Shown piece by piece: positions 11,905 through 40,408 of a DNA stretch of 64,000 bases. The notes under the pieces are model-generated. The model made no database searches and had not been told where the DNA came from. It saw only the letters and a program-made list of their open reading frames with translations. The stretch comes from Ensifer adhaerens (GTDB lineage Bacteria; Pseudomonadota; Alphaproteobacteria; Rhizobiales; Rhizobiaceae), in contig NZ_JABEKT010000003.1 of the NCBI RefSeq assembly GCF_013283195.1, positions 575,323-639,322 of the forward strand. Direction: 5' to 3'. The position numbers and the translations under genes were made by a program. How positions within the stretch are numbered: the first letter of the stretch is position 1; the number at the start of each line of letters is the position of its first letter.

Positions 11905-13410
11905 TCAGGAGAAGAGAAGAGATTTGATGACAACGGGGATAACGCCCGGCGGGTTCATGAACTCTCCCAGATCGACGAAATCGAGGTCTTTCAAGCGAAC
12001 ACCATCCACGGAGATCAGATGCGTGTGGATGCCAAGCTCCCGATCCAGAATGCGCCCGATGGTCTGACCTACATCTCCATCGATCATCAGGACAAGCGGT
12101 TCCTCGCGCGTTCCATCCGGTGCTGCCACCGCCTTGATCCCCTGCGCCACAGCAAGAAGCCGCTGATACTCCGGTTCTCCTGTCCAGGTGAAGGCGAATG
12201 CAATCATCGCCATTGTGTCGCGATCCTGCCGATCGGCGCTCTGGCGGAAGGCCGCGGCGATCTCTTCCGCGTCGACGACTTCAGGCAGTTCCCGGCCGAG
12301 ATGGACCACCGGGATATTGTGCTTCGGCAGCACGTTAGCACCGTTCATGTAGAGTGTCTTGCCGCTCACCTGTACAGTGAACTGTGAGGCACCGATGACT
12401 GTTGCGCGGATGCGCTGCCCGGCGTCGACGATGGGGATGCTGATGTGCGGCGTCAGCTGGCTGATGATCTCGTCTGCCAGCAGTCGGGCGATATCGCCAT
12501 GGTCGCTCTCTTCGTAGCCGAAAATGTACTCCGAAACGCCACCGGAGAAGGTGATGTAGCTCGGCTCGACAGATCGCTCGAGAGGTTCGGTCAAAAGGAA
12601 GCGGCGACCGAGATCGTCGAGCGGCCCGCCCAGAATTTCGTCAACGGCAAGGCTTGCAAGGCGCTTGGCAATCGCTGCGCGGTTGGTTGGGTCCGCCATC
12701 GCGGTTGGATTGGTCGAGATCCCCAGTTCTTGCGCAGTCAGGCGCGCGGAATCGTCGAGCCGCGACCAGACGCCCTGCGTGTCCTTGGCAACGAGGCGGC
12801 CGCCAACTGCGAAAGCGGCCACGCTGACAATTTCACCATTGTCGATCAGCGCAAGCTTGGTCGTGCCGCCTCCAATGTCGACATGCAAGCCGCAGGCGCC
12901 ACGCTTCTTCGAAAGGGCCGTGGCACCGGAACCATGGGCCGCCAGCATGCATTCCAGTTTGTGCCCAGCTGTGGCGCAGACGAAACGACCGGACTCATTT
13001 GCAAAAATCTCGTCGATTGCGCGCGCGTTCGTCTTCTTGATCGCCTCACCGGTCAGGATGACGGCGCCGGTATCGATATGGCTGCGACGATAGCCAGCAT
13101 CCTCGTAGCAATGCTGGAAGAAATGGCGCAACTCGCGCGCGTCAATTGTTCCGTCCGGTAGGAAGGGGGTCAACAGGATGGGCGAACGCCAGACGACCTG
13201 GCGATTGATGACCACAAAGCTGCTGGAGAGATCCTCGGTCTCGCGTCGCATTACCACCCGCGCAAAGAGCAGGTGGGATGTGGAGCTGCCAATATCGATG
13301 CCGACTGTCAGAAGCTCGACCGACTCCTGCTTCCACAGCCAGTCAGCGATTTCCTGACGTTCGCTTTCAGAAATATCTTCGTGTTCGTGTTCAAAATCGA
13401 GATCGTGCAC
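11905..13410 (-). CDS. EutA-family ATPase (ethanolamine ammonia-lyase reactivase-like), copy 1
   Basis: A 501-residue member of the EutA branch of the actin/Hsp70/sugar-kinase (ASKHA) fold. Phosphate-1 motif VGIDIGSSTSHLLFA lies at about 36-50, phosphate-2 HVDIGGGTTKLALID in the middle, and TFSGGVSEYIFG plus RATVIGASQFTVQVSG are as in EutA. The C-terminus IPVVIKSLLFS is also EutA-like. In known systems EutA uses ATP to swap damaged B12 out of ethanolamine ammonia-lyase. No EutBC is present in this window; the gene instead follows a bicupin gene by 42 bases, so a different client protein is inferred. The start is GTG 13410 with GGAGGTG upstream. A paralogue sits at 38894. Confidence 0.82.
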   Translation of the reverse strand: MHDLDFEHEHEDISESERQEIADWLWKQESVELLTVGIDIGSSTSHLLFARVVMRRETEDLSSSFVVINRQVVWRSPILLTPFLPDGTIDARELRHFFQHCYEDAGYRRSHIDTGAVILTGEAIKKTNARAIDEIFANESGRFVCATAGHKLECMLAAHGSGATALSKKRGACGLHVDIGGGTTKLALIDNGEIVSVAAFAVGGRLVAKDTQGVWSRLDDSARLTAQELGISTNPTAMADPTNRAAIAKRLASLAVDEILGGPLDDLGRRFLLTEPLERSVEPSYITFSGGVSEYIFGYEESDHGDIARLLADEIISQLTPHISIPIVDAGQRIRATVIGASQFTVQVSGKTLYMNGANVLPKHNIPVVHLGRELPEVVDAEEIAAAFRQSADRQDRDTMAMIAFAFTWTGEPEYQRLLAVAQGIKAVAAPDGTREEPLVLMIDGDVGQTIGRILDRELGIHTHLISVDGVRLKDLDFVDLGEFMNPPGVIPVVIKSLLFS

Positions 13411-13452: not shown

Positions 13453-14673
13453 TCAGCTCGCGGGGCCTGCAAGGACTGGCGTCTTGATGACACCAGTCAA
13501 GCTTTCCGGCGGCAGCGCCATCACCGCCTCCTCGTCGAAAAGATCCCCCATGGCAGAAGGAACACCGGTCTTCTTCAATTCCTCCAGGAACTTGCGATGA
13601 ACGCGCGGATCCTGATCCTCATATTCAATCTGGCGACCACCGTCCTTGACCGACGTCGCCCCACCGCCTTCAGCGCTCTTGCGCCTCAGAGAAATGAACG
13701 GGTAGCGCCGACTACCCAGGCTGCAAGCTACATAGCGCGCAGGCTGGTCGCAGGTGTTGAAATGCTGATGATACATCCAAAATGGCGGCGTATACATGAA
13801 GCCATGTCGCCAGGGGATTTCCTTGAACTCGGAGTCACCCTCGTACCACATCAGCGAGTAACCCTCGCCATCGACGGCATGAACGTGGGTACCGGCGGCG
13901 TGGCGATGGGCCTTCTTGTAGCGACCGACCGGCATTTGCGACACGTGAGAGTGCATTGTGCCGTCGGCGAGCACGAAGTTGACGTTGAGCGATCCCTTGC
14001 CGCGCCCTTCGAACTCATAAAGCTTGAAGCTTGTGAGGTCATGGACGAAATTCGTTTCCCAGATGTTTTGCACCTTGCGGGCGGATTCCAGACCGTAGGA
14101 ATAGAGCGAGCCGTCACCATCGAAGTGCTTGGTTCCGCCGACACGGTCCTGGAAGACGAAGTCGTTGGCAAAGACGAAGTCGAGGTTGTGATAGAGATTG
14201 ATGGTGAGCGGCGCGTTGTTGGTGCAGGAAAGCCGCACCGTGTCGATGCCCGATCCGTTGTTGAACTGATATTTGCAGTTGAGCGGGATGGCAAACAGCG
14301 CCTTCGGCCCCCACTCGAACGTGCGGGTCTCACCGCTCGGCAGCCACACCGTTGTCGAGCCGTAGCCGGACAGAACATAGAAGAAGGCTTCATAGAGATG
14401 CTTGACCGGTCGGGTCTTCTTGCCGGGAAGAATCTCGATGACATAATTTGCCATGAAATCGCCCATGCCGTGGGTGTGGGCGAAGCATCCGCGCGCCTCG
14501 TAGCGATCCCATTCGGCGGTTTCGAGCGCCAACAAGTCGTGCCCGAGATCGAGATGGATCGGAATGCCCTCGTCATTCGACCAGTCCTTGTAGGGATCGA
14601 CCAGGAACTTTCGGTTCTCCGGATCAGGCGTCACCGTCGGTTCGAGAGGTGATGTGCTGGGGATGCTGGTCAT
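13453..14673 (-). CDS. Bicupin protein paired with the EutA-like ATPase, copy 1
   Basis: About 406 residues with two cupin barrels. The N-terminal barrel (about 75-145) keeps KHLYEAFFYVLSGYGSTTVW but has lost part of the metal ligands: only His92 remains of the HxH motif, and Tyr occupies the usual distal His. The C-terminal barrel (about 235-315) has HRH at 256-258 and YHQH at 301-304, a probable 3-His metal site as in gentisate 1,2-dioxygenase and related Fe(II) cupin oxygenases. The start is ATG 14673; a GTG at 14682 is possible. Its paralogue at 37652 shares DEGIPI, GSTxVW, FEW and YHQHF. Function is unknown; a ring-cleaving or oxidative activity is an inference. Confidence 0.72.
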   Translation of the reverse strand: MTSIPSTSPLEPTVTPDPENRKFLVDPYKDWSNDEGIPIHLDLGHDLLALETAEWDRYEARGCFAHTHGMGDFMANYVIEILPGKKTRPVKHLYEAFFYVLSGYGSTTVWLPSGETRTFEWGPKALFAIPLNCKYQFNNGSGIDTVRLSCTNNAPLTINLYHNLDFVFANDFVFQDRVGGTKHFDGDGSLYSYGLESARKVQNIWETNFVHDLTSFKLYEFEGRGKGSLNVNFVLADGTMHSHVSQMPVGRYKKAHRHAAGTHVHAVDGEGYSLMWYEGDSEFKEIPWRHGFMYTPPFWMYHQHFNTCDQPARYVACSLGSRRYPFISLRRKSAEGGGATSVKDGGRQIEYEDQDPRVHRKFLEELKKTGVPSAMGDLFDEEAVMALPPESLTGVIKTPVLAGPAS

Positions 14674-14816
14674 CTCGTTCACTTTCGCTATGTTGTTCGG
14701 CGCCGCGATCTTTTGGTTTGTTAGGCGATAGGACTATGGAATTTCGGGCGGGGTATCGGTAGCCCGTTTTCGGAAAAGACATTTTCCCGGAGAGAACTCC
14801 GCCGGAGCAAGGTCCC

Positions 14817-22771: not shown

Positions 22772-23815
22772 ATGATCATCGACATTCACGGACATTACAC
22801 CACCGAGCCGCAGGCGCTGCACCAGTTCCGCGACAAGCAGCTTGCCGGCCTCGCCGATCCCATGCGCCGGCCGCTCACCACCGATCTCGGCATCACCGAC
22901 GAGATGCTGCTGAAATCCGTCGAGCCGCAGCTTGCCTTCCAGAAGGAGCGCGGCAGCGACCTCACCATCTTCTCGCCGCGTGCCGCCGGCATGGCCCACC
23001 ATGTCGGTACGGAAGCCGTCGGCATGCAGTGGGCGAGGATGTCCAACGACCTGATCCACCGCATCTGCACCCTGCTGCCGGACAATTTTGCCGCCGTCGG
23101 GCAATTGCCGCAGCATCCGGGCGCTCCGCCGAAGAACTGCATTCCCGAGCTCGAGCGCATCGTCAACGAACTCGGCTTCGTCGGCGTCAACCTCAATCCT
23201 GATCCGTCCGGCGGCTACTGGACCGATCCGCCGCTCACCGACCGGCAATGGTATCCGCTCTACGAAAAGCTCTGCGAGCTTGACGTGCCCGCGATGATCC
23301 ACGTCACCTCGTCGTGCAATCCCTGCTTCCACCACACGGGCGCGCACTACATCAACGGCGACACCACCGCCTTCATGCAGCTGATCCAGGGTGATCTGTT
23401 CAAGGATTTCCCGACGCTGAAATTCGTCATCCCGCACGGCGGCGGCGCGGTGCCCTTTCATTGGGGCCGCTACCGGGGGCTCGCACAGGAAATGAAGAAG
23501 CCACTGCTGAGCGAGCACCTGCTCAACAACGTCTTCTTCGATACCTGCGTCTACCACTATCCCGGTATCGAGCTGATGGCCAAGGTGATCCCGGTCGACA
23601 ACATCCTGTTTGCCTCGGAGATGCTCGGTGCGGTCAAGGGCATCGATCCGGAAACCGGCCATCACTACGACGACACCAAGCGCTACATCGACCAACTGAC
23701 GACACTCGACGAGGGCAGCCGATACAAGGTGTTCGAGGGCAATGCCCGGCGCGTCTATCCACGTCTCGATGCGCAGCTTGCCAAGCGCGGCCGTCCCGGC
23801 CGGACAGGTCATTGA
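22772..23815 (+). CDS. ligJ: 4-oxalomesaconate hydratase-type amidohydrolase
   Basis: 347 residues, ACMSD/amidohydrolase-2 family, closely resembling LigJ of Sphingobium: MIIDIHGHYTTEPQ with the metal pair H6/H8, KERGSDLTIFSPRAAGMAHH, GFVGVNLNPDPSGGYWT, PHGGGAVPFHWGRYRGLAQE and FASEMLGAVKGIDPETGHHY. LigJ adds water to 4-oxalomesaconate to give 4-carboxy-4-hydroxy-2-oxoadipate in protocatechuate 4,5-cleavage and gallate pathways. A LigK/RraA-type aldolase for the next step is encoded at 25399. The presence of this enzyme argues that the pathway makes a 4-oxalomesaconate-like intermediate, although no LigAB or gallate dioxygenase is seen. Confidence 0.86.
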   Translation: MIIDIHGHYTTEPQALHQFRDKQLAGLADPMRRPLTTDLGITDEMLLKSVEPQLAFQKERGSDLTIFSPRAAGMAHHVGTEAVGMQWARMSNDLIHRICTLLPDNFAAVGQLPQHPGAPPKNCIPELERIVNELGFVGVNLNPDPSGGYWTDPPLTDRQWYPLYEKLCELDVPAMIHVTSSCNPCFHHTGAHYINGDTTAFMQLIQGDLFKDFPTLKFVIPHGGGAVPFHWGRYRGLAQEMKKPLLSEHLLNNVFFDTCVYHYPGIELMAKVIPVDNILFASEMLGAVKGIDPETGHHYDDTKRYIDQLTTLDEGSRYKVFEGNARRVYPRLDAQLAKRGRPGRTGH

Positions 23816-25398: not shown

Positions 25399-26076
25399 AT
25401 GACCCTCGGTTTCAGAATCCTCGAACGGCAGCGCAAGGTGAGCGCTGAGACGATCGAGAAATTTCGCGAGATCCCCGTCGCCAATGTCAGCGATGTCATG
25501 TCCCGCATGGTTGCGGCTGGTCCTGCGCTCCGGCCGCTGCATGCTTCCGGAGTGCTCGCGGGTGCAGCCTTCACGGTCAAGACGCGGCCAGGCGACAATC
25601 TCATGATCCACAAGGCTTTGCTGATGGCAGGCCCGGGGGACGTGATCGTCGTCGATGCCGGAGGCGATCTCACCAACGCGCTGATGGGAGAACTTATGCT
25701 CTCCCATGCCCGCGCTATCGGCACGCACGGCGTCGTCATCAACGGCGCGGTGCGGGATTACGGCTGGATCAGCAGCAATACCTTCCCGGTCTTTGCAGCC
25801 GGCGTCACCCATCGCGGCCCTTACAAGGATGGCCCCGGCGAGATCAACGTGCCGATCTCGCTCGGCGGCATGATCATCGAGCCTGGCGATCTCCTGCTCG
25901 GCGACGAGGACGGACTGGTTTGTGTGCCCTTCGAGCAGTCGGACCATATCCATGCACTCGCCAGGGCCAAGAACGCTTCCGAGGCGAAGACCTACGAAAA
26001 TACGCTCGCAGGCAGGCTCGACCCGAAGCTTTGGGTCGACGAGACGCTTCGCAAGCTGGGCTGCGAAGGCGTGTGA
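25399..26076 (+). CDS. RraA-fold aldolase, LigK/HMG-aldolase type
   Basis: 225 residues, RraA-like/4-hydroxy-4-methyl-2-oxoglutarate aldolase family. Conserved features are PGDNLMIHKALLMAGPGDVIVVDAGG (split as PGDNLMIH and GPGDVIVVDAGGD), GELM, and the catalytic INGAVRDYGW, where Arg and Asp bind substrate and metal. Class II aldolases of this fold split 4-carboxy-4-hydroxy-2-oxoadipate into pyruvate and oxaloacetate, the step directly after LigJ. It is a metal-dependent enzyme, not a regulator of RNase E in this context. An AGGAGGAGA site precedes ATG 25399. Confidence 0.84.
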   Translation: MTLGFRILERQRKVSAETIEKFREIPVANVSDVMSRMVAAGPALRPLHASGVLAGAAFTVKTRPGDNLMIHKALLMAGPGDVIVVDAGGDLTNALMGELMLSHARAIGTHGVVINGAVRDYGWISSNTFPVFAAGVTHRGPYKDGPGEINVPISLGGMIIEPGDLLLGDEDGLVCVPFEQSDHIHALARAKNASEAKTYENTLAGRLDPKLWVDETLRKLGCEGV

Positions 26077-28017: not shown

Positions 28018-28157
28018 GAGGTAAAGAGATTAAAATTTACTTTCCGGCTGCGATGGTCGATTTTCATTGTCAGCAGGTTAGCCCCACAGACAATCCGCGC
28101 CCGTATCAAGCGCTCGGCATCTGCAGAATCGTTCGAAACATTCAAGGGAATCGAGAA

Positions 28158-28754
28158 ATGAAAGCAGCAATCAAGAGCGGTCTGCTGGCCCTGGCCGCCA
28201 TCGGTATTCCGGCCGTCGCCCACGCCCATACTGGCGTCGGCGATACAGGCGGTCTTGTTCACGGCTTCATGCATCCGATCGGCGGCCTTGACCACGTCCT
28301 GGCCATGGTTGCAGTTGGCGTGTTCGCCTCCATCCTCGGCGGCCGTGCGCTCTGGCTGGTGCCGACAAGCTTTGTCGTCATGATGGCCGTTGGCGGCGTC
28401 CTCGGTATGCAAGGTGTAAGCGTCCCGTTCGTCGAGATCGGCATCGCGGCATCCGTCGTCGTGCTTGGCCTTGCCGTCGCGCTGCGCTGGAACCCGCCGA
28501 CGGCTGCCGCCATGGGCGTCGTCAGCCTCTTTGCGATCTTTCACGGACACGCACACGGCGCTGAAATGCCGCTCGATGCCTCCGGGCTGCAATATGCCAT
28601 CGGCTTCATGGCGGCGACCGCCCTCCTGCATATCGCCGGCGTTGGCCTCGGCGTCGTCATCGGCCGGATCAGTGCCAACTCCACGGCCGCCATGCGCTTT
28701 GGCGGCGGCGCCATGGCACTCGCCGGCGTCGGCCTTCTGACCGGCTACATCTGA
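28158..28754 (+). CDS. hupE: HupE/UreJ-family nickel transporter-like membrane protein
   Basis: 198 residues. A signal peptide (about 1-22, ends AVAHAH) is followed by the HupE signature HTGVGDTGGLVHGFMHPIGGLDHVLAMVAVG, cited here as HPIGGLDHVLAM, and six hydrophobic segments. A second His cluster FAIFHGHAHGAEM is present. Family members import Ni2+ or Co2+ for hydrogenase, urease or B12. No hydrogenase or urease is in the window. ATG 28158 is preceded by AAGGGAA. A strong terminator follows. Confidence 0.83.
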   Translation: MKAAIKSGLLALAAIGIPAVAHAHTGVGDTGGLVHGFMHPIGGLDHVLAMVAVGVFASILGGRALWLVPTSFVVMMAVGGVLGMQGVSVPFVEIGIAASVVVLGLAVALRWNPPTAAAMGVVSLFAIFHGHAHGAEMPLDASGLQYAIGFMAATALLHIAGVGLGVVIGRISANSTAAMRFGGGAMALAGVGLLTGYI

Positions 28755-31376: not shown

Positions 31377-32375
31377 TCAGTAGAACTGATCGAAATGAAC
31401 CTGGGCCGATGGTACGCCAAGGTCAACCAGCATCTTCTGGATGGCCTGCCCCATCAGCGGCGGGCCCGCAAAGTAGATTTCGCAATCGCGCAACCGTTCG
31501 GAAAACAGGCGCTCGGCCACCTCGTGCACGAAGCCGCGGTGCCCGGCCCAGCCGTCGTCGCCGCCGGCCGATATCGCCGGGTGGTAGCGTATATGGGTGC
31601 CAAATCGCGGCAGTTCGGCGAGCATATCTTCGCCGCAGATATCCTGGGCCGAGCGCCCGCCATAAACGAAATCGACAGTGCGCCCGGCAAAAAGCGGCGA
31701 GGCTGCAGCAGCCCGCGTGACCGAGATCATCGGCGAGAGACCCGAACCACCGGCAAGACAGATGATATCGCGCTCCGCATCCTCGCGGAAATAAGCCATC
31801 CCGTATGGCCCGTCGATCTTGATCCGGTCGCCGACCGAAAGCGCGCCAAACAACTTGCCCGTCGCGGCACCGTTCGGTACGCGCCGGATCTGGAAATGCC
31901 ATTCGTCGGCATCGGTGTTTGCCATCGAATAGGCGCGGCTGCCCTCAACGCGCGGCAGATCGAGAAGCGCGTACTGGCCGGCAAGGAATGGTTGGGGACG
32001 ATCGAGCCTGAAGCGGAATTCGCGAATGTCGTGGGTGATGTCGCGCACCGCGACAAGAACGCCCGACTGGCGAACCGGCGACACATGGCTCTCATATTGC
32101 GGCATGAACCGGAGCTTGACCGTGCAGTCTGCAAGCGGCCGGGCCTGACAGCCGAGACGGCGTCCCCTCTCCCGATCACGATCGCTCAAACCCGGCGCAT
32201 TGGCGCGCAATTCCTCGATTTCGCCTTCCAGAAGATCGAAGCGGCAATTGCCGCACGAGCCGACGTTGCATTCATAGGGAAAACCCAGTCCGGCCCTAAG
32301 CGCTGATCGCATGATCGTATCGTCATCTGCGCATTGCCACCGGATGTCGCTTCCCTTGACTGCAATCGTCGGCAT
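31377..32375 (-). CDS. [2Fe-2S]/FAD/NAD(P)H oxygenase reductase
   Basis: 332 residues. An N-terminal plant-type ferredoxin domain has Cys36, Cys41, Cys44 and Cys76 (YECNVGSCGNC...LGC). It is followed by a ferredoxin-reductase-type FAD domain (GSRAYSMAN) and an NAD-binding domain (AGGSGLSPMISVTRA, FAGPPLM). This order is that of class IB/III oxygenase reductases and monooxygenase reductases. It should pass electrons from NAD(P)H to the Rieske ferredoxin at 35376 or directly to the oxygenase. The start lies two bases after the IclR stop. Confidence 0.88.
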   Translation of the reverse strand: MPTIAVKGSDIRWQCADDDTIMRSALRAGLGFPYECNVGSCGNCRFDLLEGEIEELRANAPGLSDRDRERGRRLGCQARPLADCTVKLRFMPQYESHVSPVRQSGVLVAVRDITHDIREFRFRLDRPQPFLAGQYALLDLPRVEGSRAYSMANTDADEWHFQIRRVPNGAATGKLFGALSVGDRIKIDGPYGMAYFREDAERDIICLAGGSGLSPMISVTRAAAASPLFAGRTVDFVYGGRSAQDICGEDMLAELPRFGTHIRYHPAISAGGDDGWAGHRGFVHEVAERLFSERLRDCEIYFAGPPLMGQAIQKMLVDLGVPSAQVHFDQFY

Positions 32376-33880: not shown

Positions 33881-35167
33881 TCAGACGCTCGTCGGCGCCT
33901 TGCCTTCAATAACGACCAGCGCCTCTTCGGCGACATCGACATAGGACTTGTCGACTGGCAGCACGATCGCAGCCGAGCGGACGCGGTGATGGGCCGGGTC
34001 GACCCCGGGAGGCATGGTGCCCTTGTCGCGCAGCGCACGTGCCGCCTTCATCAGCCGATGCCGGGCCATGATGATGCCGTTGTCGGTCGAGACGAGGTTT
34101 TCCTTGGAGCGATCGACGATCGGTCCCATGCTTTCCTGCAGCGAAGCGTCCTGCATGGCTATGCCCTCGACGCCGGAGTAAGTCGTCCCCTTGCGTTGGG
34201 CCTCTCGGTCCATCAGGTAATCGTTGTCCTTGTTGGCAAGCGGCCGGTAGGTACCGGGCACATAGGCGACGTGGATGCCCTTACCATCAATCATCGCCTG
34301 ACGCTCTTCCTTCGTGAGCGCTCGTTCCGGACGATAATCGAAGCTCCACGCCCAGCAGTTCTCGTCATCGATCGGGATCCAGAAGTGGCCATGGACCGGA
34401 TGGTTGCCGCGGGGCGGAACCATGGTGAAGGAGGGCATGACCCAGGGAGTGACGCGCCAGTAGTAGTGGCCTTCCTCGGCATTGCGGCGCGCGCCGATGT
34501 AAAGGCCGCCCTCGCTGTCGGTCACTTCAAAGAACGGACGGGCATCGGACATATTGTACTTGTTGCCACGCGCACCTTTGAAGAGCGGGTCGCTGTTCAG
34601 GCTGCCGCTGTGCAGCCAGGAAACGTGGCTGGAATCGATGCCGCCCTCCATGGCCTGCAGCCAGTTGCACTCCTGCCAACGCTTGGACGTGAAGGTCTGC
34701 TCGGAAGGCACCAGCGAAAATTCCCATTCCGGGTGCGGTGGCTCCTTCTCCGCAGGCCCCATGTAGGTCCAGAGGATGTCGCCGATCTTGATCAGCGGAT
34801 AGGACTTCAGCTTGATCTTGCCGCAATAGCCGCTTTCTTTCGGCTCGGACGGAACTTCGACGCATTGACCCGTCCGGTCGTATTTCCAGCCGTGATAGGG
34901 GCAGCGCAAACCGCCCTGCTCATTGCGGCCGAACCAAAGCGAAACGCCGCGATGGGCGCAAAACTCATCGATCAGACCATAGCGCCCTTCGCTATCACGG
35001 AAGGCGAGCAAGCGCTCTCCGAGCAACTTGACGCGCACCGGGGCACAGTCGTTGTCCGGCAGCTCCTCCGCCAGCAGCGCCGGGATCCAGTAACAGCGAA
35101 ACATCTCGCCCATCGGCGTGCCGGGGCCTGTCTGCGTCAATAGATCGTTCTGGTCCTTCCTCAGCAT
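33881..35167 (-). CDS. Rieske non-heme iron aromatic-ring oxygenase, phthalate 4,5-dioxygenase type
   Basis: 428 residues. Rieske [2Fe-2S] ligands Cys70-x-His72 (FCAHRG) and Cys89-x2-His92 (RCPYHGW); mononuclear iron site in GGIDSSHVSWLHSG (Asp178, His181, His186). The N-terminus MLRKDQNDLLTQTGPGTPMG with EMFRCYWIPALL is that of phthalate 4,5-dioxygenase and 3-phenoxybenzoate dioxygenase type oxygenases, which are alpha-only and take electrons from a reductase. Start ATG 35167 follows GGAGGAAAG. Likely substrate: an aromatic carboxylate such as a phthalate isomer. It is first in the operon behind operator B. Confidence 0.9.
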   Translation of the reverse strand: MLRKDQNDLLTQTGPGTPMGEMFRCYWIPALLAEELPDNDCAPVRVKLLGERLLAFRDSEGRYGLIDEFCAHRGVSLWFGRNEQGGLRCPYHGWKYDRTGQCVEVPSEPKESGYCGKIKLKSYPLIKIGDILWTYMGPAEKEPPHPEWEFSLVPSEQTFTSKRWQECNWLQAMEGGIDSSHVSWLHSGSLNSDPLFKGARGNKYNMSDARPFFEVTDSEGGLYIGARRNAEEGHYYWRVTPWVMPSFTMVPPRGNHPVHGHFWIPIDDENCWAWSFDYRPERALTKEERQAMIDGKGIHVAYVPGTYRPLANKDNDYLMDREAQRKGTTYSGVEGIAMQDASLQESMGPIVDRSKENLVSTDNGIIMARHRLMKAARALRDKGTMPPGVDPAHHRVRSAAIVLPVDKSYVDVAEEALVVIEGKAPTSV

Positions 35168-35276
35168 TCTCTTTCCTCCAGATCGGGGCTGCCTGCGCAG
35201 CATTCCCGTTTGCCTTGCCGTCTCTGCTGCCGCGATGGGCAGGGGTTGACGTTCTCGAATGATCGGGTATTCTCTT

Positions 35277-35375: not shown

Positions 35376-35693
35376 ATGGCTGAGGCAATGACCAGGATCA
35401 GGCTGTGTTCGACTGACGACGTGGATTGGGACAGTGCGATCCGCATTGAGGAGGGCGACCTCATCCTCGCCGTGTTCAACGTCAACGGCGCGTTCTACGT
35501 GACCGATGACCTGTGCACGCACGGGCCCGGCTCGCTCTCGGAAGGTTATCTCGACGGCCACACGATCGAATGCGACTTCCACAACGGCGCGTTTGACGTG
35601 CGCACCGGTGAAGTCGTTACCCCACCCTGCATGCTCCCCGTGAAGACCTACAGGGTTGTCCTCGAAAACAATGACGTGCTGATCGAGGTCTAG
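35376..35693 (+). CDS. Rieske-type ferredoxin
   Basis: 105 residues, a biphenyl/naphthalene-dioxygenase-type Rieske ferredoxin: Cys47-x-His49 (LCTHGPG) and Cys66-x2-His69 (CDFHNGAFD). It is divergent from the oxygenase gene and shares its control region. AAGGAGGAACC precedes the ATG. Together with the reductase at 31377 it could form a three-component chain, or it may serve another oxygenase. Confidence 0.88.
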   Translation: MAEAMTRIRLCSTDDVDWDSAIRIEEGDLILAVFNVNGAFYVTDDLCTHGPGSLSEGYLDGHTIECDFHNGAFDVRTGEVVTPPCMLPVKTYRVVLENNDVLIEV

Positions 35694-35768
35694 TCCCGCC
35701 AAGAGGCGATCCGCTTGCTACTCTTAACAATTCGTATAATGTGGGATTTATTCAAAGTGGAGGATGGA

Positions 35769-36530
35769 ATGGCACTGCATAGACACGCGGATCATCAAGC
35801 GGAAGCAATCCCTTCTGAAGAAGCGCTAAGGCTCGACGTATCCATGAGCACACGGCTGCTCAACAGTATGAAAATCCTGGAGTATAGCGGCCATGTCTCG
35901 GCCCGTCTGTCGGGAGGGAATACGTTCCTGGTCCAGCCCCAGAACAAAAGTCGCGCCGAAGTCAGCCCCGAAGACCTGCTGGTTTGCGACCTCGACGGCA
36001 CGGTGGTAGCGGGCACGCCCGGCGTGAAGCCACCGTCTGAAATATTCCTCCATTGTGAGATTTATCGCGCCCGCACGGACATCCATTCGATCGCACATTT
36101 CCATCACGACGTGACGAATGTCTTTACCCTCGTCGAGGGCGTGCCGCTGCTCCCGTTCAAGAACCATGCCATCCGCTGGAAAAGCGGCATTCCGGTGCAT
36201 CCCGATCCGGCCCACGTCGACGACGCCGAACGCGGCCGGGCGATCGTAAGCACGCTCGGACCGCATCATGCGATGCAGATCCGCGCCCATGGCCAGATCG
36301 TTACGGCCGAGACGGTAAGGGGCGTGTTCATCGATTCTGTCCATCTCGTCGAGAATGCGGAAGCTGCCTATCGTGCCTGCGCGCTTGGAATGGCCAAGCC
36401 GCTGACCGCGGACGAGATCGAATCCTTCTCACACAGCTTCCGCCGTGGTCATCATATCCGCAAGCTCTGGAGCTACTACACGCTCGGTGCGATCCGCGAA
36501 GGCGTCTTCCCCGAGGCCTGGGCTGCCTGA
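35769..36530 (+). CDS. Class II aldolase/adducin-family protein, copy 1
   Basis: 253 residues. The zinc-binding His set is seen in SIAHFHHDVTNVF and QIRAHGQIV, with Glu in PSEIFLHCEIY. The family includes fuculose aldolases and also 3,4-dihydroxyphthalate 2-decarboxylase (PhtC) of phthalate pathways. In this aromatic context decarboxylation is the more attractive reading. Start ATG 35769 follows GGAGGATGG; an in-frame upstream start lacks a site. A TATAAT element at about 35736 may be its promoter. It follows the ferredoxin gene by 75 bases. Confidence 0.8.
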   Translation: MALHRHADHQAEAIPSEEALRLDVSMSTRLLNSMKILEYSGHVSARLSGGNTFLVQPQNKSRAEVSPEDLLVCDLDGTVVAGTPGVKPPSEIFLHCEIYRARTDIHSIAHFHHDVTNVFTLVEGVPLLPFKNHAIRWKSGIPVHPDPAHVDDAERGRAIVSTLGPHHAMQIRAHGQIVTAETVRGVFIDSVHLVENAEAAYRACALGMAKPLTADEIESFSHSFRRGHHIRKLWSYYTLGAIREGVFPEAWAA

Positions 36531-36567: not shown

Positions 36568-36737
36568 TGCGTTGCTGACACACAATGGCCGCTGCTTTCG
36601 CCCCCGATGGCTGAAGCAGCGGCGGTTCTCGCCGCTTGCAGATCCGAGCCGAGACATATGTTGCCGCAAGACTATTCCCTTTCTGGTTCCACCGAGACCT
36701 TTCACACAACATCCTCCGCCTTCAGGAGGCATGCCGC

Positions 36738-37487
36738 TTGAACAGCCATGAAAAAATGCTCGGCCTTCTCGACCTGTTCGACGGCGAGGAGAATGCGGTC
36801 GCCGTCACCATCGACGAGATGCACGAACGGCTGGGTTATACCCGTTCGACCCTCTATCGATACCTGAAGACGCTGACCGATGCGGGCCTGCTCACCTCGC
36901 TTCCATCGGTCGGCTATATGTTGGGCCCCCGTATCGTCGAACTCGATTACAAGATCCGCACCGGTGATGTGCTGATCCGCGCCGCTCGCCCGGTCATGGA
37001 AGAGCTGGCCGCACAGTTTCGCGGCATTACGCTTCTTTGCCGCCGCTATCGCTTCGAGGTGCTCTGCGTCCATCAGGAAAGCGGTACGGATGCGATCCGT
37101 TCCGGCTATGAGCGCGGCCGTCGCCGTTCGCTACTGCACGGAGCTGCTTCGCTTTCGATCCTTGCCTACCTGCCCGATCACCAGCTTCGCAAATTCCACG
37201 GCGAAGCTGCGGCCCAGTTTGCCGCGGCCGGTTTCGGTGAGACCTTGAAGGATGCCAAGGCGATCCTTCGCGAGCAACGCCAGCGTGGCTGGGTCAGCAC
37301 CGCAGGCGACGTCACCCCCGGCGTGACCGGCATTGCCGCCCCCGTCCTGGATGGGCGCTCGGAAATCCTTGGCAGCCTCAGCCTGACCATACCCGACGGG
37401 CAACTGCAGGCGAAATCGCTGGAGGATATCGCCGAACGTGTCGCGTTTTGCGCCGGGGTGATCTCGAAAACCATCGCGCTCAGCTGA
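36738..37487 (+). CDS. IclR-family regulator, copy 2
   Basis: 249 residues from TTG 36738, chosen because AGGAGG lies nine bases upstream and the length then fits the family; an ATG at 36756 is possible. HTH region about 5-70 (YTRSTLYRYLKTLTDAGLL), effector domain with GAASLSILAYL and GVTGIAAPVLDGRSEILGSL. It lies 164 bases upstream of the bicupin/EutA-like operon in the same direction and probably regulates it. Confidence 0.84.
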   Translation: MNSHEKMLGLLDLFDGEENAVAVTIDEMHERLGYTRSTLYRYLKTLTDAGLLTSLPSVGYMLGPRIVELDYKIRTGDVLIRAARPVMEELAAQFRGITLLCRRYRFEVLCVHQESGTDAIRSGYERGRRRSLLHGAASLSILAYLPDHQLRKFHGEAAAQFAAAGFGETLKDAKAILREQRQRGWVSTAGDVTPGVTGIAAPVLDGRSEILGSLSLTIPDGQLQAKSLEDIAERVAFCAGVISKTIALS

Positions 37488-37651: not shown

Positions 37652-38890
37652 ATGCACCAGGACCCACTCGGCGGCGGCACCGGCACGCACTGGCATGAGC
37701 CAGCCGGCAACAAGAAGGCTGGTTTGGGGGAGTTCAAGAAGCAACCCACCCCCTATGACCAGTTCATGGTCGACGAGGGCATTCCGATCTTCCGGGACCT
37801 CGGAATTCCGAACGTCCGCGACATACCGCTCGCCCCCTGGAAACGCACCGGCGGCCGTGGCTCCTACATCCAGCTTTACGGCACCGAGACCAAGTGGGGT
37901 CACCATGTCGTGGAGGTGCCCGCTGGTGGCGCACTCAATCCTGAAAAGCATATGTATGAGGAAATCTACATCGTGGTCGAAGGCCGCGGCTCGACCGAAG
38001 TGTGGCTGGAAGGCGAAGGCAAGAAGCATGTCTTCGAATGGCAACAGGGCTCGATGTTCTCGATCCCGATGAACGCCATGCACCGTATCGTCAACGCCAC
38101 GAACAAGCCTGCCCTTTTGATGGGCGGCAACACCGCGCCGAACGTGCTGAACCAGATCAACAATGTCGAGGCGGTGTTCAACAACCCCTTCATCTTCCGC
38201 GACCGCTTCTCCGGCGCCGACGACTTCTACAAATACCGCGAAGAGATCGAGCCCGATCCGGTGCGCGGCCTTGCCATGCGCCGCACCAACTTTCTGCCGG
38301 ATGCAGTCAATTGCGACCTGCCACTCGACAACCGCCGTTCGCCCGGTTACCGCCGCGTCGAACCGTTCATGACCAACAACCAGTTCTATTTCTGGATCGG
38401 CCAGCACGAGAACGGTCGCTATTCCAAGGCGCATGCCCATACATCGGCCGCGATCCTGATCTGCCTGAGCGGTTCGGGCTACACTTACACCTGGCCGGAA
38501 GAGTGCGGCGTCAACCCTTGGCGGGACGGCCATGCGCACCGCGTGCGCCGGCTCGATTACGGCCAGTTCGGCATGGTGACGGCCGCTCCTGGCGGCGCGC
38601 GCTGGTACCACCAGCATTTCAGCGTCTCGAAGGAACCCTTCAGGCTCCTCGCCTGGTTCGGGCCCCACAATCCGGGCCGCGATCCGGGCGCGCCGGGCGA
38701 AAAGCACACGGACTACACCGCCATCAATGTGAACGAGGGCGGCACCGCCATTCCTTACTGGATGGAAGACCCCCATATCCGGCAGGAATACGAGGCGCTG
38801 TTGAAGAAAAATGGCGTGGAAGTGCGCATGAAGCCGGAATGGTATGAAAAGCCGGCCGACACCTCCACCAAGATGTCCGACGTCGTCTGA
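37652..38890 (+). CDS. Bicupin protein paired with a EutA-like ATPase, copy 2
   Basis: 412 residues, two cupin barrels. N-terminal barrel: His100, Glu103/104 and His144 (EKHMYEEIYIVVEGRGSTEV; NAMHRIVNAT). C-terminal barrel: HAH at 261-263 and YHQH at 319-322, giving a 3-His site like gentisate dioxygenase. The pattern DEGIPIFRDLG, GSTEVW, FEW and YHQHF is shared with the copy at 13453, but overall identity is low, so the two are old paralogues. Start ATG 37652 follows GAGAGGAGA. The EutA-like gene begins three bases after its stop. Substrate unknown; an Fe(II) ring-cleaving oxygenase is a working idea. Confidence 0.74.
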   Translation: MHQDPLGGGTGTHWHEPAGNKKAGLGEFKKQPTPYDQFMVDEGIPIFRDLGIPNVRDIPLAPWKRTGGRGSYIQLYGTETKWGHHVVEVPAGGALNPEKHMYEEIYIVVEGRGSTEVWLEGEGKKHVFEWQQGSMFSIPMNAMHRIVNATNKPALLMGGNTAPNVLNQINNVEAVFNNPFIFRDRFSGADDFYKYREEIEPDPVRGLAMRRTNFLPDAVNCDLPLDNRRSPGYRRVEPFMTNNQFYFWIGQHENGRYSKAHAHTSAAILICLSGSGYTYTWPEECGVNPWRDGHAHRVRRLDYGQFGMVTAAPGGARWYHQHFSVSKEPFRLLAWFGPHNPGRDPGAPGEKHTDYTAINVNEGGTAIPYWMEDPHIRQEYEALLKKNGVEVRMKPEWYEKPADTSTKMSDVV

Positions 38891-38893
38891 TCC

Positions 38894-40408
38894 ATGGCCG
38901 ACGACGAGGAACAGCAGGGCGGCCGCATATTCTTTTCAAACATCGGCCGCAGCATGGAGCTGGAGGACGAGATCGTGCTGACGAGCGTTGGCATCGATAT
39001 CGGTTCCTCCACCTCCCATCTCGCCTTCTCGCGCATCGTGCTGGAGCGGCTCGACACCCGCTATATGGTGGTTGAACGCACGCTGCTGCACCAGTCAGAC
39101 GTGTTGCTCACCCCCTATAGCGGCGACAATGAGATCGATGCTGAGGCACTGGGCGCTTTCATCGCCCAGCAATATGCCGCGGCCAATCTGAAGCCCGAAG
39201 CCATCGACACCGGTGCGCTCATCCTGACAGGCGTCGCGGTGCGCCGAAAAAATGCCCGTGCCATCGGCGACATCTTTTCGGCCCAGACCGGAAAGTTCGT
39301 GGTCGTCAGCGCCGGCGACGGACTGGAAACCACGCTTGCCGCCTTCGGCTCGGGCGCCGTCGCGCGCTCGGCCAAGGACGACATCCGGGTCCTCAACGTC
39401 GATATCGGCGGCGGCACGTCCAAACTTGCCCTTTGCGAAAGCGGCACTATCCGCCACATCAGCGCCATCGACATCGGCGCACGCATCATCGCCTTCGATG
39501 AAAGCCGCCGCATCACCCGCATCGAGGAAGCTGGCCATCACTTCGCCGGCCGCGCAGGGGTGCCGATCGCGTTCGGAGAGCCCCTCAGCGAGACCGATGC
39601 GCGCAAAATCGCTGAGATCATGATCGATTGCCTGTTCGAGGCCATGCAGGGTGGGAAGATGCTGCCGCAGACGGTCGCCTTGCACCGCCTGCCACCATTG
39701 CCGAATGGCTCGCCTCCCGATATCGTCACCATCTCCGGCGGCGTCTCGGAATTCTTCTATGCCAAGGACGAGCAAAGCTTCAGCGATCTTGGCCCTCTGC
39801 TTGCCGTAGCATTGCGCGAAAAGCTCGCGGGCTGGCCGCCTGCGCTGGAAGTGCCGCAGCAGGGCATCCGCGCCACCGTTGTCGGGGCCTCGCAATACAC
39901 GGTCCAGGTCAGCGGCAGCACGATCTTCGTTGAGCCACTCGGACTGCTTCCGGTCCGCAACGTGCCTGTGATCAAGCCGCAGATCGTCTTTTCTGAAGAC
40001 ATCGACGCCGAAGCCGTTGCCGCGACAGTCCGCGATGCGCTTTCCCGCCTCGATCTCGCCAACGCAGAAAGCCCGGTCGGCCTCTGCTACGAATGGGAGG
40101 GTTCTGCCAGCTACGGACGCCTCGATGGCTTCTGCCGGGGGATCGCCGAGGGGCTTTCGCCGATCCTTGCCAAGGGTCATCCGCTGATCCTCGTCGGCGA
40201 AGGCGATATCGGCGGCCTTATCGGCATGCATTGCCAGCAGGACACGGGCGTAGCGAAGGTCATTTCGATCGACGGCATCAAGCTTGATGAGTTCGACTTC
40301 ATCGATATCGGCGCCATCCTCGAAACCTCCGGCGCCGTGCCGGTGGTGATCAAGTCGCTGGTCTTTCCGAGCCTTGGTCTCGGCCATGAAGCCCTCGAGA
40401 AACAATAG
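38894..40408 (+). CDS. EutA-family ATPase, copy 2
   Basis: 504 residues, EutA branch of the ASKHA fold. Phosphate-1 SVGIDIGSSTSHLAFS (about 32-46), phosphate-2 NVDIGGGTSKLALCESG, adenosine-type TISGGVSEFFYAKDE, RATVVGASQYTVQVSGSTIF and the C-terminal IDIGAILETSGAVPVVIKSL all match EutA. The bicupin stop is three bases upstream. Ethanolamine ammonia-lyase subunits are absent. A chaperone-like reactivation of the bicupin or another pathway enzyme is inferred. The phosphate-1 loop has SST where enterobacterial EutA has TTT; the key Asp and Gly are kept, so ATP binding should be intact. Confidence 0.83.
   Translation: MADDEEQQGGRIFFSNIGRSMELEDEIVLTSVGIDIGSSTSHLAFSRIVLERLDTRYMVVERTLLHQSDVLLTPYSGDNEIDAEALGAFIAQQYAAANLKPEAIDTGALILTGVAVRRKNARAIGDIFSAQTGKFVVVSAGDGLETTLAAFGSGAVARSAKDDIRVLNVDIGGGTSKLALCESGTIRHISAIDIGARIIAFDESRRITRIEEAGHHFAGRAGVPIAFGEPLSETDARKIAEIMIDCLFEAMQGGKMLPQTVALHRLPPLPNGSPPDIVTISGGVSEFFYAKDEQSFSDLGPLLAVALREKLAGWPPALEVPQQGIRATVVGASQYTVQVSGSTIFVEPLGLLPVRNVPVIKPQIVFSEDIDAEAVAATVRDALSRLDLANAESPVGLCYEWEGSASYGRLDGFCRGIAEGLSPILAKGHPLILVGEGDIGGLIGMHCQQDTGVAKVISIDGIKLDEFDFIDIGAILETSGAVPVVIKSLVFPSLGLGHEALEKQ

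Follow-up and report, generated by a model that had tools for sequence, protein, structure and literature searches.

A conserved pairing of a bicupin with a EutA-like actin-fold ATPase in Ensifer adhaerens: a candidate ATP-driven metal-loading helper

The 64,000-nucleotide stretch of Ensifer adhaerens DNA analyzed here (the window; G000:C14:575323-639322, within the 7.07 Mb source genome) carries a gene for a two-barrel cupin protein (bicupin) followed directly by a gene for an ATPase of the EutA family (PF06277). We found that a second, diverged pair with the same gene order, which the first-pass annotation had overlooked, is present on the minus strand of the window. The four genes are as follows:

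37652..38890, plus strand: bicupin 1, 412 amino acids, remotely gentisate/salicylate-dioxygenase-like, with HxH (261/263) and HQH (320/322) in the C-terminal barrel
38894..40408, plus strand: EutA-like ATPase 1, 504 amino acids, with the actin-fold (ASKHA) motifs DIGSST, DIGGGT and SGGV
13453..14682, minus strand: bicupin 2, 409 amino acids, 31% identical to bicupin 1
11905..13410, minus strand: EutA-like ATPase 2, 501 amino acids, 42 bp past bicupin 2 and 38% identical to EutA-like 1

In the open reading frame (ORF) of bicupin 1 (37586/37652-38890, plus strand), an AGGAG ribosome-binding site precedes the ATG at 37652, and the TGA stop is followed by three bases (TCC) and then by the ATG of EutA-like 1 at 38894. 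EutA-like 2 starts with GTG behind GGGAGGTGA, a strong ribosome-binding site, and its N-terminus reads MHDLDFEHEHED. The order, bicupin then EutA, is identical in the two pairs despite only 31% identity between the bicupins and 38% between the ATPases. Against a gathering score of 27, EutA-like 1 matches PF06277 with 384 bits (profile positions 3-474 of 475) and EutA-like 2 with 354 bits, so that the coordinates and the profile agree with the earlier description of a bicupin followed, three bases on, by a full-length EutA-family ATPase. The absence of EutBC (ethanolamine ammonia-lyase) from the 64 kb was also borne out, as no ORF of the window matches EutB or EutC.

Is the pairing a general property of such EutA-like proteins? 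We scanned an 84,980-species collection with EutA 1 and took the best 80 of 516 loci, which are not an even sample and which, by title, come from Alpha-, Beta- and Gammaproteobacteria, Chloroflexota, Deltaproteobacteria, Acidobacteriota and an actinobacterium. ORFs were started at the first ATG, GTG or TTG. We counted 109 EutA-like proteins of at least 430 amino acids (3 of 112 matches were shorter and were dropped) and observed a bicupin adjacent to 77 of them, in 68 cases no more than 400 bp upstream and in the same orientation and in 9 cases in another arrangement. For 17 of the remaining proteins the bicupin lay elsewhere in the locus, and for 15 there was none in the locus; L041, where the contig ends within the bicupin, was scored as adjacent, and the second EutA of L110, with a bicupin 8.1 kb off, was scored as having none. 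The 15 EutAs lacking a bicupin within 8 kb belong to 14 genomes, and all 14 hold bicupins elsewhere (2–31 match rows, some of them fragments). The surrounding genes differ between loci while the pairing persists. At one locus (L045, 4614-9758), three bicupin genes stand in tandem before a single EutA-like gene, and the Chloroflexota genomes of L101, L104 and L106 (G679, G680 and G682; 2.3, 3.3 and 1.7 Mb) give 24, 31 and 15 bicupin match rows versus 3, 5 and 4 EutA rows.

The same association was observed when whole genomes were searched. Across 289 genomes of the class, PF06277 gave 15 strong matches in 6 genomes, and the other listed matches were short and weak; a partial match on contig C1 of the source genome (28 bits), like many short cross-matches, was left uncounted. 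Ten of the 13 class EutAs outside the window are directly adjacent to a bicupin (one truncated at a contig end, one encoded on the other strand), two lie behind a UbiD-type decarboxylase with a small cupin nearby and one stands alone. EutA was found in 6 of the 289 genomes, the bicupin in 7 and both in 6 (Fisher p 9e-12); the seventh bicupin genome (G226) has the start of a EutA next to its bicupin, where the contig ends (26 bits). In a later sample, 7 of 397 genomes of the order were positive, the source genome included, and the EutAs in the regions taken from the other six were all bicupin-adjacent (10/10, or 9/9 new ones after removal of L187, a 100% repeat of L128; L105 and L106 likewise duplicate each other, being one region from two assemblies, at 99.5%). 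Large plasmids carry the system in some Sinorhizobium and Phyllobacterium. Furthermore, the two partners diverge together: a mirror-tree comparison of 62 pairs, in which negative intergenic gaps reflect over-extended ORFs, gave r 0.89, and 0 of 2000 permutations were as high, none exceeding 0.47. The genome-neighborhood check that the first-pass annotation had proposed therefore found the adjacency kept, in 77 of 109 and in 9 of 9 new cases, and not the loss of conservation that it had named beforehand as speaking against its idea.

Other partners were considered and set aside. A UbiD-type decarboxylase (by Pfam in L039) stands directly before the EutA-like gene, with a small single cupin behind, in L039 (6576-10781) and L034 (7703-11204), and in L039 a NicO permease lies between the EutA-like gene and the small cupin. 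A cluster of neighbor genes that is UbiD-like by eye (cluster 16) occurs in 6 loci, but UbiD directly precedes EutA only in L034 and L039, whose genomes both also hold bicupins, and it was rejected as a general partner; possibly, it is another client of the EutA-like protein. Neither is there a common third gene: genes of a hydrolase cluster trail EutA by no more than 300 bp, in the same orientation, in only 20 loci (e.g., L073 9518-10471 and L067 9512-10525), and the two members checked were both prolyl aminopeptidases.

EutA strips damaged cobalamin from ethanolamine ammonia-lyase using ATP (PMC5821096). The EutA-like proteins share with EutA the Pfam family over their whole length, the nucleotide-site and C-terminal residues, and a gene position beside the presumed client, as EutA adjoins EutB or EutC. 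On the other hand, they form a separate clade with an extra N-terminal segment and, in one subclade, His-rich tails. They also fail the NCBIfam EutA equivalog cut-offs (308 for EutA-like 1 and 295 for EutA-like 2 versus a lowest cut-off of 598), which E. coli EutA, as a control, passes (1072 versus 799). In the tree, which has some long branches, the 109 proteins are split from nine EutB-linked EutAs and one reference by a branch with a Shimodaira–Hasegawa-like approximate likelihood ratio test (SH-aLRT) value of 100. Their neighbors differ as well: EutB or EutC is directly adjacent to canonical EutA in 9 of 9 control loci examined, whereas none was found in 96 EutA-like loci with the identical queries that did find EutB in control loci.

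EutB does not track these EutAs across genomes either. It occurs in 24 of the 289 class genomes, together with EutA only in the source genome (p 0.41), and in 8 of 30 genomes carrying the pair, several of which are draft or metagenome assemblies; the other 22, some of them incomplete, gave no EutB match. EutBC, whose co-occurrence with these EutAs in all genomes had also been named beforehand as counting against a bicupin client, was thus rejected as the partner. In the source genome, one ORF (G000:C12:1365572-1366870; L004 1294-3645), on a different contig from the EutAs, matches EutB and, weakly, EutC; such a single ORF, seen also in L134 and L135, is apparently a fused ethanolamine ammonia-lyase. 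Because 23 of the 24 EutB genomes of the class lack EutA, most EutBC of the class must manage without the known reactivase. A third and very diverged EutA (229 bits) is encoded in L140 (G479:C6:3526185-3527573), where a diverged EutB follows it immediately, in the same order. Adjacency, co-occurrence, phylogeny and co-divergence make it well supported that the EutA-like protein serves the bicupin, as the first-pass annotation had proposed, and not ethanolamine ammonia-lyase.

The nucleotide motifs of the actin fold are retained in the ATPase. The motif residues G33, D35, G37, D170, G172-G174, T175, G282, G283 and V284 are conserved in the 109 EutA-like proteins and in 9 canonical EutAs, from which the former differ in having S38-S39 for T-T and K177 for N, among other positions. 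An AlphaFold2 model of EutA-like 1 (predicted local distance difference test, pLDDT, 83.9) matches actin-fold structures, such as PPX/GppA exopolyphosphatase, 2-hydroxyglutaryl-CoA dehydratase component A, MreB, FtsA and EutJ, with template modeling (TM) scores of 0.3–0.55. With phosphate-1, phosphate-2 and adenosine motifs and the predicted fold, the protein qualifies as an actin-fold (ASKHA) member and would be expected to use ATP.

Pfam detects a cupin only in the N-terminal barrel of bicupin 1, and the AlphaFold2 model has a bicupin fold (pLDDT 83.7); Foldseek placed MncA first; oxalate decarboxylases and seed vicilins were also among the matches, as was a gentisate dioxygenase at rank 42 (TM 0.4–0.5). 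A single-sequence search for solved relatives gave nothing significant, and a profile search against the PDB gave gentisate 1,2-dioxygenase 3bu7 as the best match (E-value 3.6e-5). The NCBIfam models for 5-aminosalicylate dioxygenase and gentisate dioxygenase weakly matched 4 and 1, respectively, of 6 bicupins tried, far under the equivalog cut-offs (25–35 bits versus 650; 21 versus 442). Among 88 near-full bicupins (15 of 103 matches lay outside 350–480 amino acids and were dropped), the C-terminal-barrel histidines are kept in 83 (H261), 82 (H263), 87 (H320) and 86 (H322), and E88 and E103 of the N-terminal barrel in 85 each. The classical cupin motif carries Glu at the position that A267 occupies in bicupin 1, and this residue is Ala in 77 of the 88. 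The earlier description of a 3-His bicupin is therefore a fair one, with four candidate histidines (3-His or 4-His) that would act as metal ligands in the predicted fold. The gentisate, salicylate and 5-aminosalicylate 1,2-dioxygenases are alike in their two cupin barrels, in the remote similarity around the His motif and in the aromatic-catabolism setting seen at pair 1; the EutA-linked bicupins differ in having the His site in the C-terminal barrel, an ATPase partner and scores far under the cut-offs. SAR202 genomes are described in PMC6123686 as carrying many ring-cleaving dioxygenases, including gentisate-type ones.

The genes around pair 1 include class II aldolases, amidohydrolases, and IclR and LysR regulators, with the following members:

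22772..23815, plus strand: amidohydrolase_2 family protein, presumably of the same catabolic cluster
25399..26076, plus strand: RraA-like aldolase, presumably of the same catabolic cluster
28158..28754 (ORF opens at 28053), plus strand: HupE/UreJ-family nickel/cobalt permease (PF04955, 188 bits), inside the catabolic cluster
31377..32375, minus strand: Fer2/FAD/NAD reductase, presumably serving the Rieske system
33881..35203, minus strand: Rieske oxygenase alpha subunit, LigXa-like (PF19301, PF00355)
35376..35693, plus strand: Rieske-type ferredoxin
35715..36530, plus strand: class II aldolase family protein (PF00596)
36636..37487, plus strand: IclR-family regulator, immediately upstream of pair 1

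Judged from these gene families, the setting of pair 1 is probably an aromatic-acid-type catabolic cluster. Pair 2 adjoins a tripartite tricarboxylate transporter gene set.

Could the metal of the bicupin be nickel or cobalt? A HupE/UreJ permease is present also in the Sinorhizobium terangae locus L146. In Phyllobacterium zundukense, a HoxN-type nickel/cobalt transporter comes right after EutA and is followed by nikR, and a second Phyllobacterium (L051) is alike. NicO lies 10 bp behind EutA in L039. L083 and L088 have a HupE/UreJ gene convergent with EutA, and in L085 and L094 one lies nearby. The expected frequency was taken from 30 genomes (~138 Mb), which gave 46 match rows for NicO and 28 for HupE, some of these rows being halves of split genes. 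Within the first 96 loci (1.51 Mb), a permease was found in 12, with L086 set aside, compared with 0.66–0.81 expected, in about six lineages by our own grouping. Among later regions, 4 of 8 unseen ones (0.14 Mb) carried a permease (NicO in L180, L185 and L188, HupE in L186) compared with ~0.07 expected by hand calculation at the same rate. When Pfam was run on eight permeases, six were above the family cut-off, and those of L185 and L180 fell just below that of NicO. Overall, permeases (HupE/UreJ, NicO and HoxN, twice with NikR) were found in 17 of 105 loci, or 16 of 103 without duplicates, compared with about one expected; the 17 include the NicO-like ORF of L086 (92 bits), which lies behind a His-tailed EutA. 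L185 and L188 repeat much of the window cluster; the HupE of the window is replaced in both by a NicO gene situated behind the Rieske genes (neighbor identities by eye).

Some of the ATPases are themselves rich in histidine. At least 4 His were found in the 40 residues before the first motif in 15 of 109 EutAs (a set without L115 and with one L119 fragment), 14 of them in one clade, and 10 of the 15 also have 8–14 His in the last 25 residues. EutA-like 2 has three His. In the later set, L183, L185 and L188 each have one EutA with both His tails, and one EutA of L186 has four His in its last 25 residues (its N-terminus was not read). All four of these EutAs face a bicupin in head-to-head orientation. 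Some nickel chaperones bear His-rich stretches, and HypB, UreG, CooC and CobW are P-loop nickel chaperone NTPases. The EutA-like ATPase resembles them as an NTPase, perhaps also in the His-rich stretches of some members, and in being encoded beside nickel importers and a putative metalloenzyme; it differs from their P-loop in its actin fold. A CobW-family metallochaperone GTPase is encoded near the pair in L185 (2-823, by Pfam) and, by similarity, in L188 (350-1330), L055 (14168-15862) and L061 (11104-13137). A cupin working with nickel is not without precedent: the quercetinase QueD uses Ni, Co or Mn at a His-dominated site and is active with 3His/1Glu or 4His ligands (PMC4416304), which makes a His-only nickel site plausible. 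QueD differs in that the word chaperone does not appear in the main text of that paper.

Given the pairing, co-occurrence and co-divergence of the two genes, the retained ATPase motifs and bicupin His site, the over-representation of nickel/cobalt importers and the His-rich tails of one ATPase subclade, we suggest, at about even confidence, that the actin-fold ATPase is a dedicated ATP-driven helper that would load or renew the metal, probably Ni(II) or Co(II), of a gentisate-dioxygenase-like bicupin. By analogy with EutA releasing damaged cobalamin, the ATPase would bind the apo- or wrongly metallated bicupin, and ATP binding or hydrolysis would open it; the correct divalent ion, probably Ni(II) or Co(II), would then enter or displace the wrong one. 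The metallated bicupin may be a dioxygenase of the ring-cleaving or a related kind that functions in the breakdown of aromatic acids. The excess of bicupin over EutA match rows in the three Chloroflexota genomes fits a shared helper. In a bolder form, to which we give somewhat less than even credence, these ATPases would be the first actin-fold metal insertase family, sister to the B12-lyase reactivase EutA, loading nickel (or cobalt) into a large, unrecognized bicupin-oxygenase family with up to 31 match rows per genome.

Several observations weigh against loading of nickel or cobalt by the ATPase. The mirror-tree value is partly fed by shared organism history, and the tree contains long branches. 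In two loci, L034 and L039, a EutA of this clade adjoins a UbiD decarboxylase instead of a bicupin, and HxH 261/263 is missing in 6 of 88 bicupins. No nickel/cobalt permease was found in 88 of 105 loci in the stretch read, 4 of 30 pair-bearing genomes match neither NicO nor HupE (other importers were not sought), and cobalt may be what the permeases transport. The first set itself gave rise to the nickel idea, and only the later regions, which are few and from one order, test it prospectively. EutA-like 1 lacks a His-rich tail; by sequence, the solved proteins closest to the bicupin are gentisate dioxygenases, and the first structural match is the Mn-cupin MncA.

The form favored by the first-pass annotation was that the ATPase repairs an Fe(II) bicupin prone to oxidative inactivation by opening the oxidized Fe(III) enzyme for iron replacement or re-reduction. 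Gentisate dioxygenases are Fe(II) enzymes, and the top profile match to 3bu7 and the weak NCBIfam dioxygenase matches speak for this explanation; the pairing evidence serves it equally. Beyond this remote similarity we found nothing to support Fe(II) or oxidative inactivation specifically: the neighborhoods, with recurrent HupE, NicO, HoxN and NikR, point to nickel or cobalt (although iron genes were not systematically searched) and speak for metal loading no less than for repair, and the His-rich tails of the EutA subclade also argue against iron repair. We consider iron repair unlikely.

A second alternative is that the two proteins form one two-component ATP-using enzyme, in which the actin-fold subunit phosphorylates or otherwise activates a substrate and the bicupin carries out the remaining step. 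Kinases and subunits of ATP-dependent enzymes are found among actin-fold proteins, the EutA-like 1 model matches PPX/GppA and 2-hydroxyglutaryl-CoA dehydratase component A, and the gene pairing is very tight. However, the Chloroflexota bicupin excess (24, 31 and 15 versus 3, 5 and 4 EutA rows) suits a shared helper better than a fixed subunit, the UbiD-linked members imply a different chemistry and the full-length similarity is to EutA, whose role is given as reactivation in PMC5821096. A fixed enzyme of this kind is, in our judgment, distinctly improbable.

Reactivation of ethanolamine ammonia-lyase or another B12 enzyme encoded elsewhere, suggested by the EutB-EutC ORF of the source genome and by EutB in 8 of 30 pair-bearing genomes, is very improbable given the 22 genomes (some incomplete) without EutB, the 96 loci without EutB/EutC (other B12 enzymes were not searched), the 23 of 24 class EutB genomes without EutA and the failed equivalog cut-offs. 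Mere co-transfer of functionally unlinked neighbors, for which the patchy distribution (7 of 397 genomes of the order) and the plasmid locations could speak, deserves next to no credence, as adjacency is kept in diverged paralogues and several phyla, presence is joint even when the genes are non-adjacent and the surrounding genes differ.

A search of the open-access literature found no report of a bicupin-EutA pair or of an actin-fold nickel chaperone. The ATPase would be a reactivase-like protein with a new client, and a categorically new one if metal insertion were shown. If the metal-loading helper proposed here is correct, ATP-driven reactivases would extend beyond B12 enzymes and the actin fold would join the machines that metallate proteins. 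Members of this clade annotated as EutA (one such annotated record was seen) would likely be something else, and a function would be provided for a family of bicupins that has undergone great expansion in some Chloroflexota.

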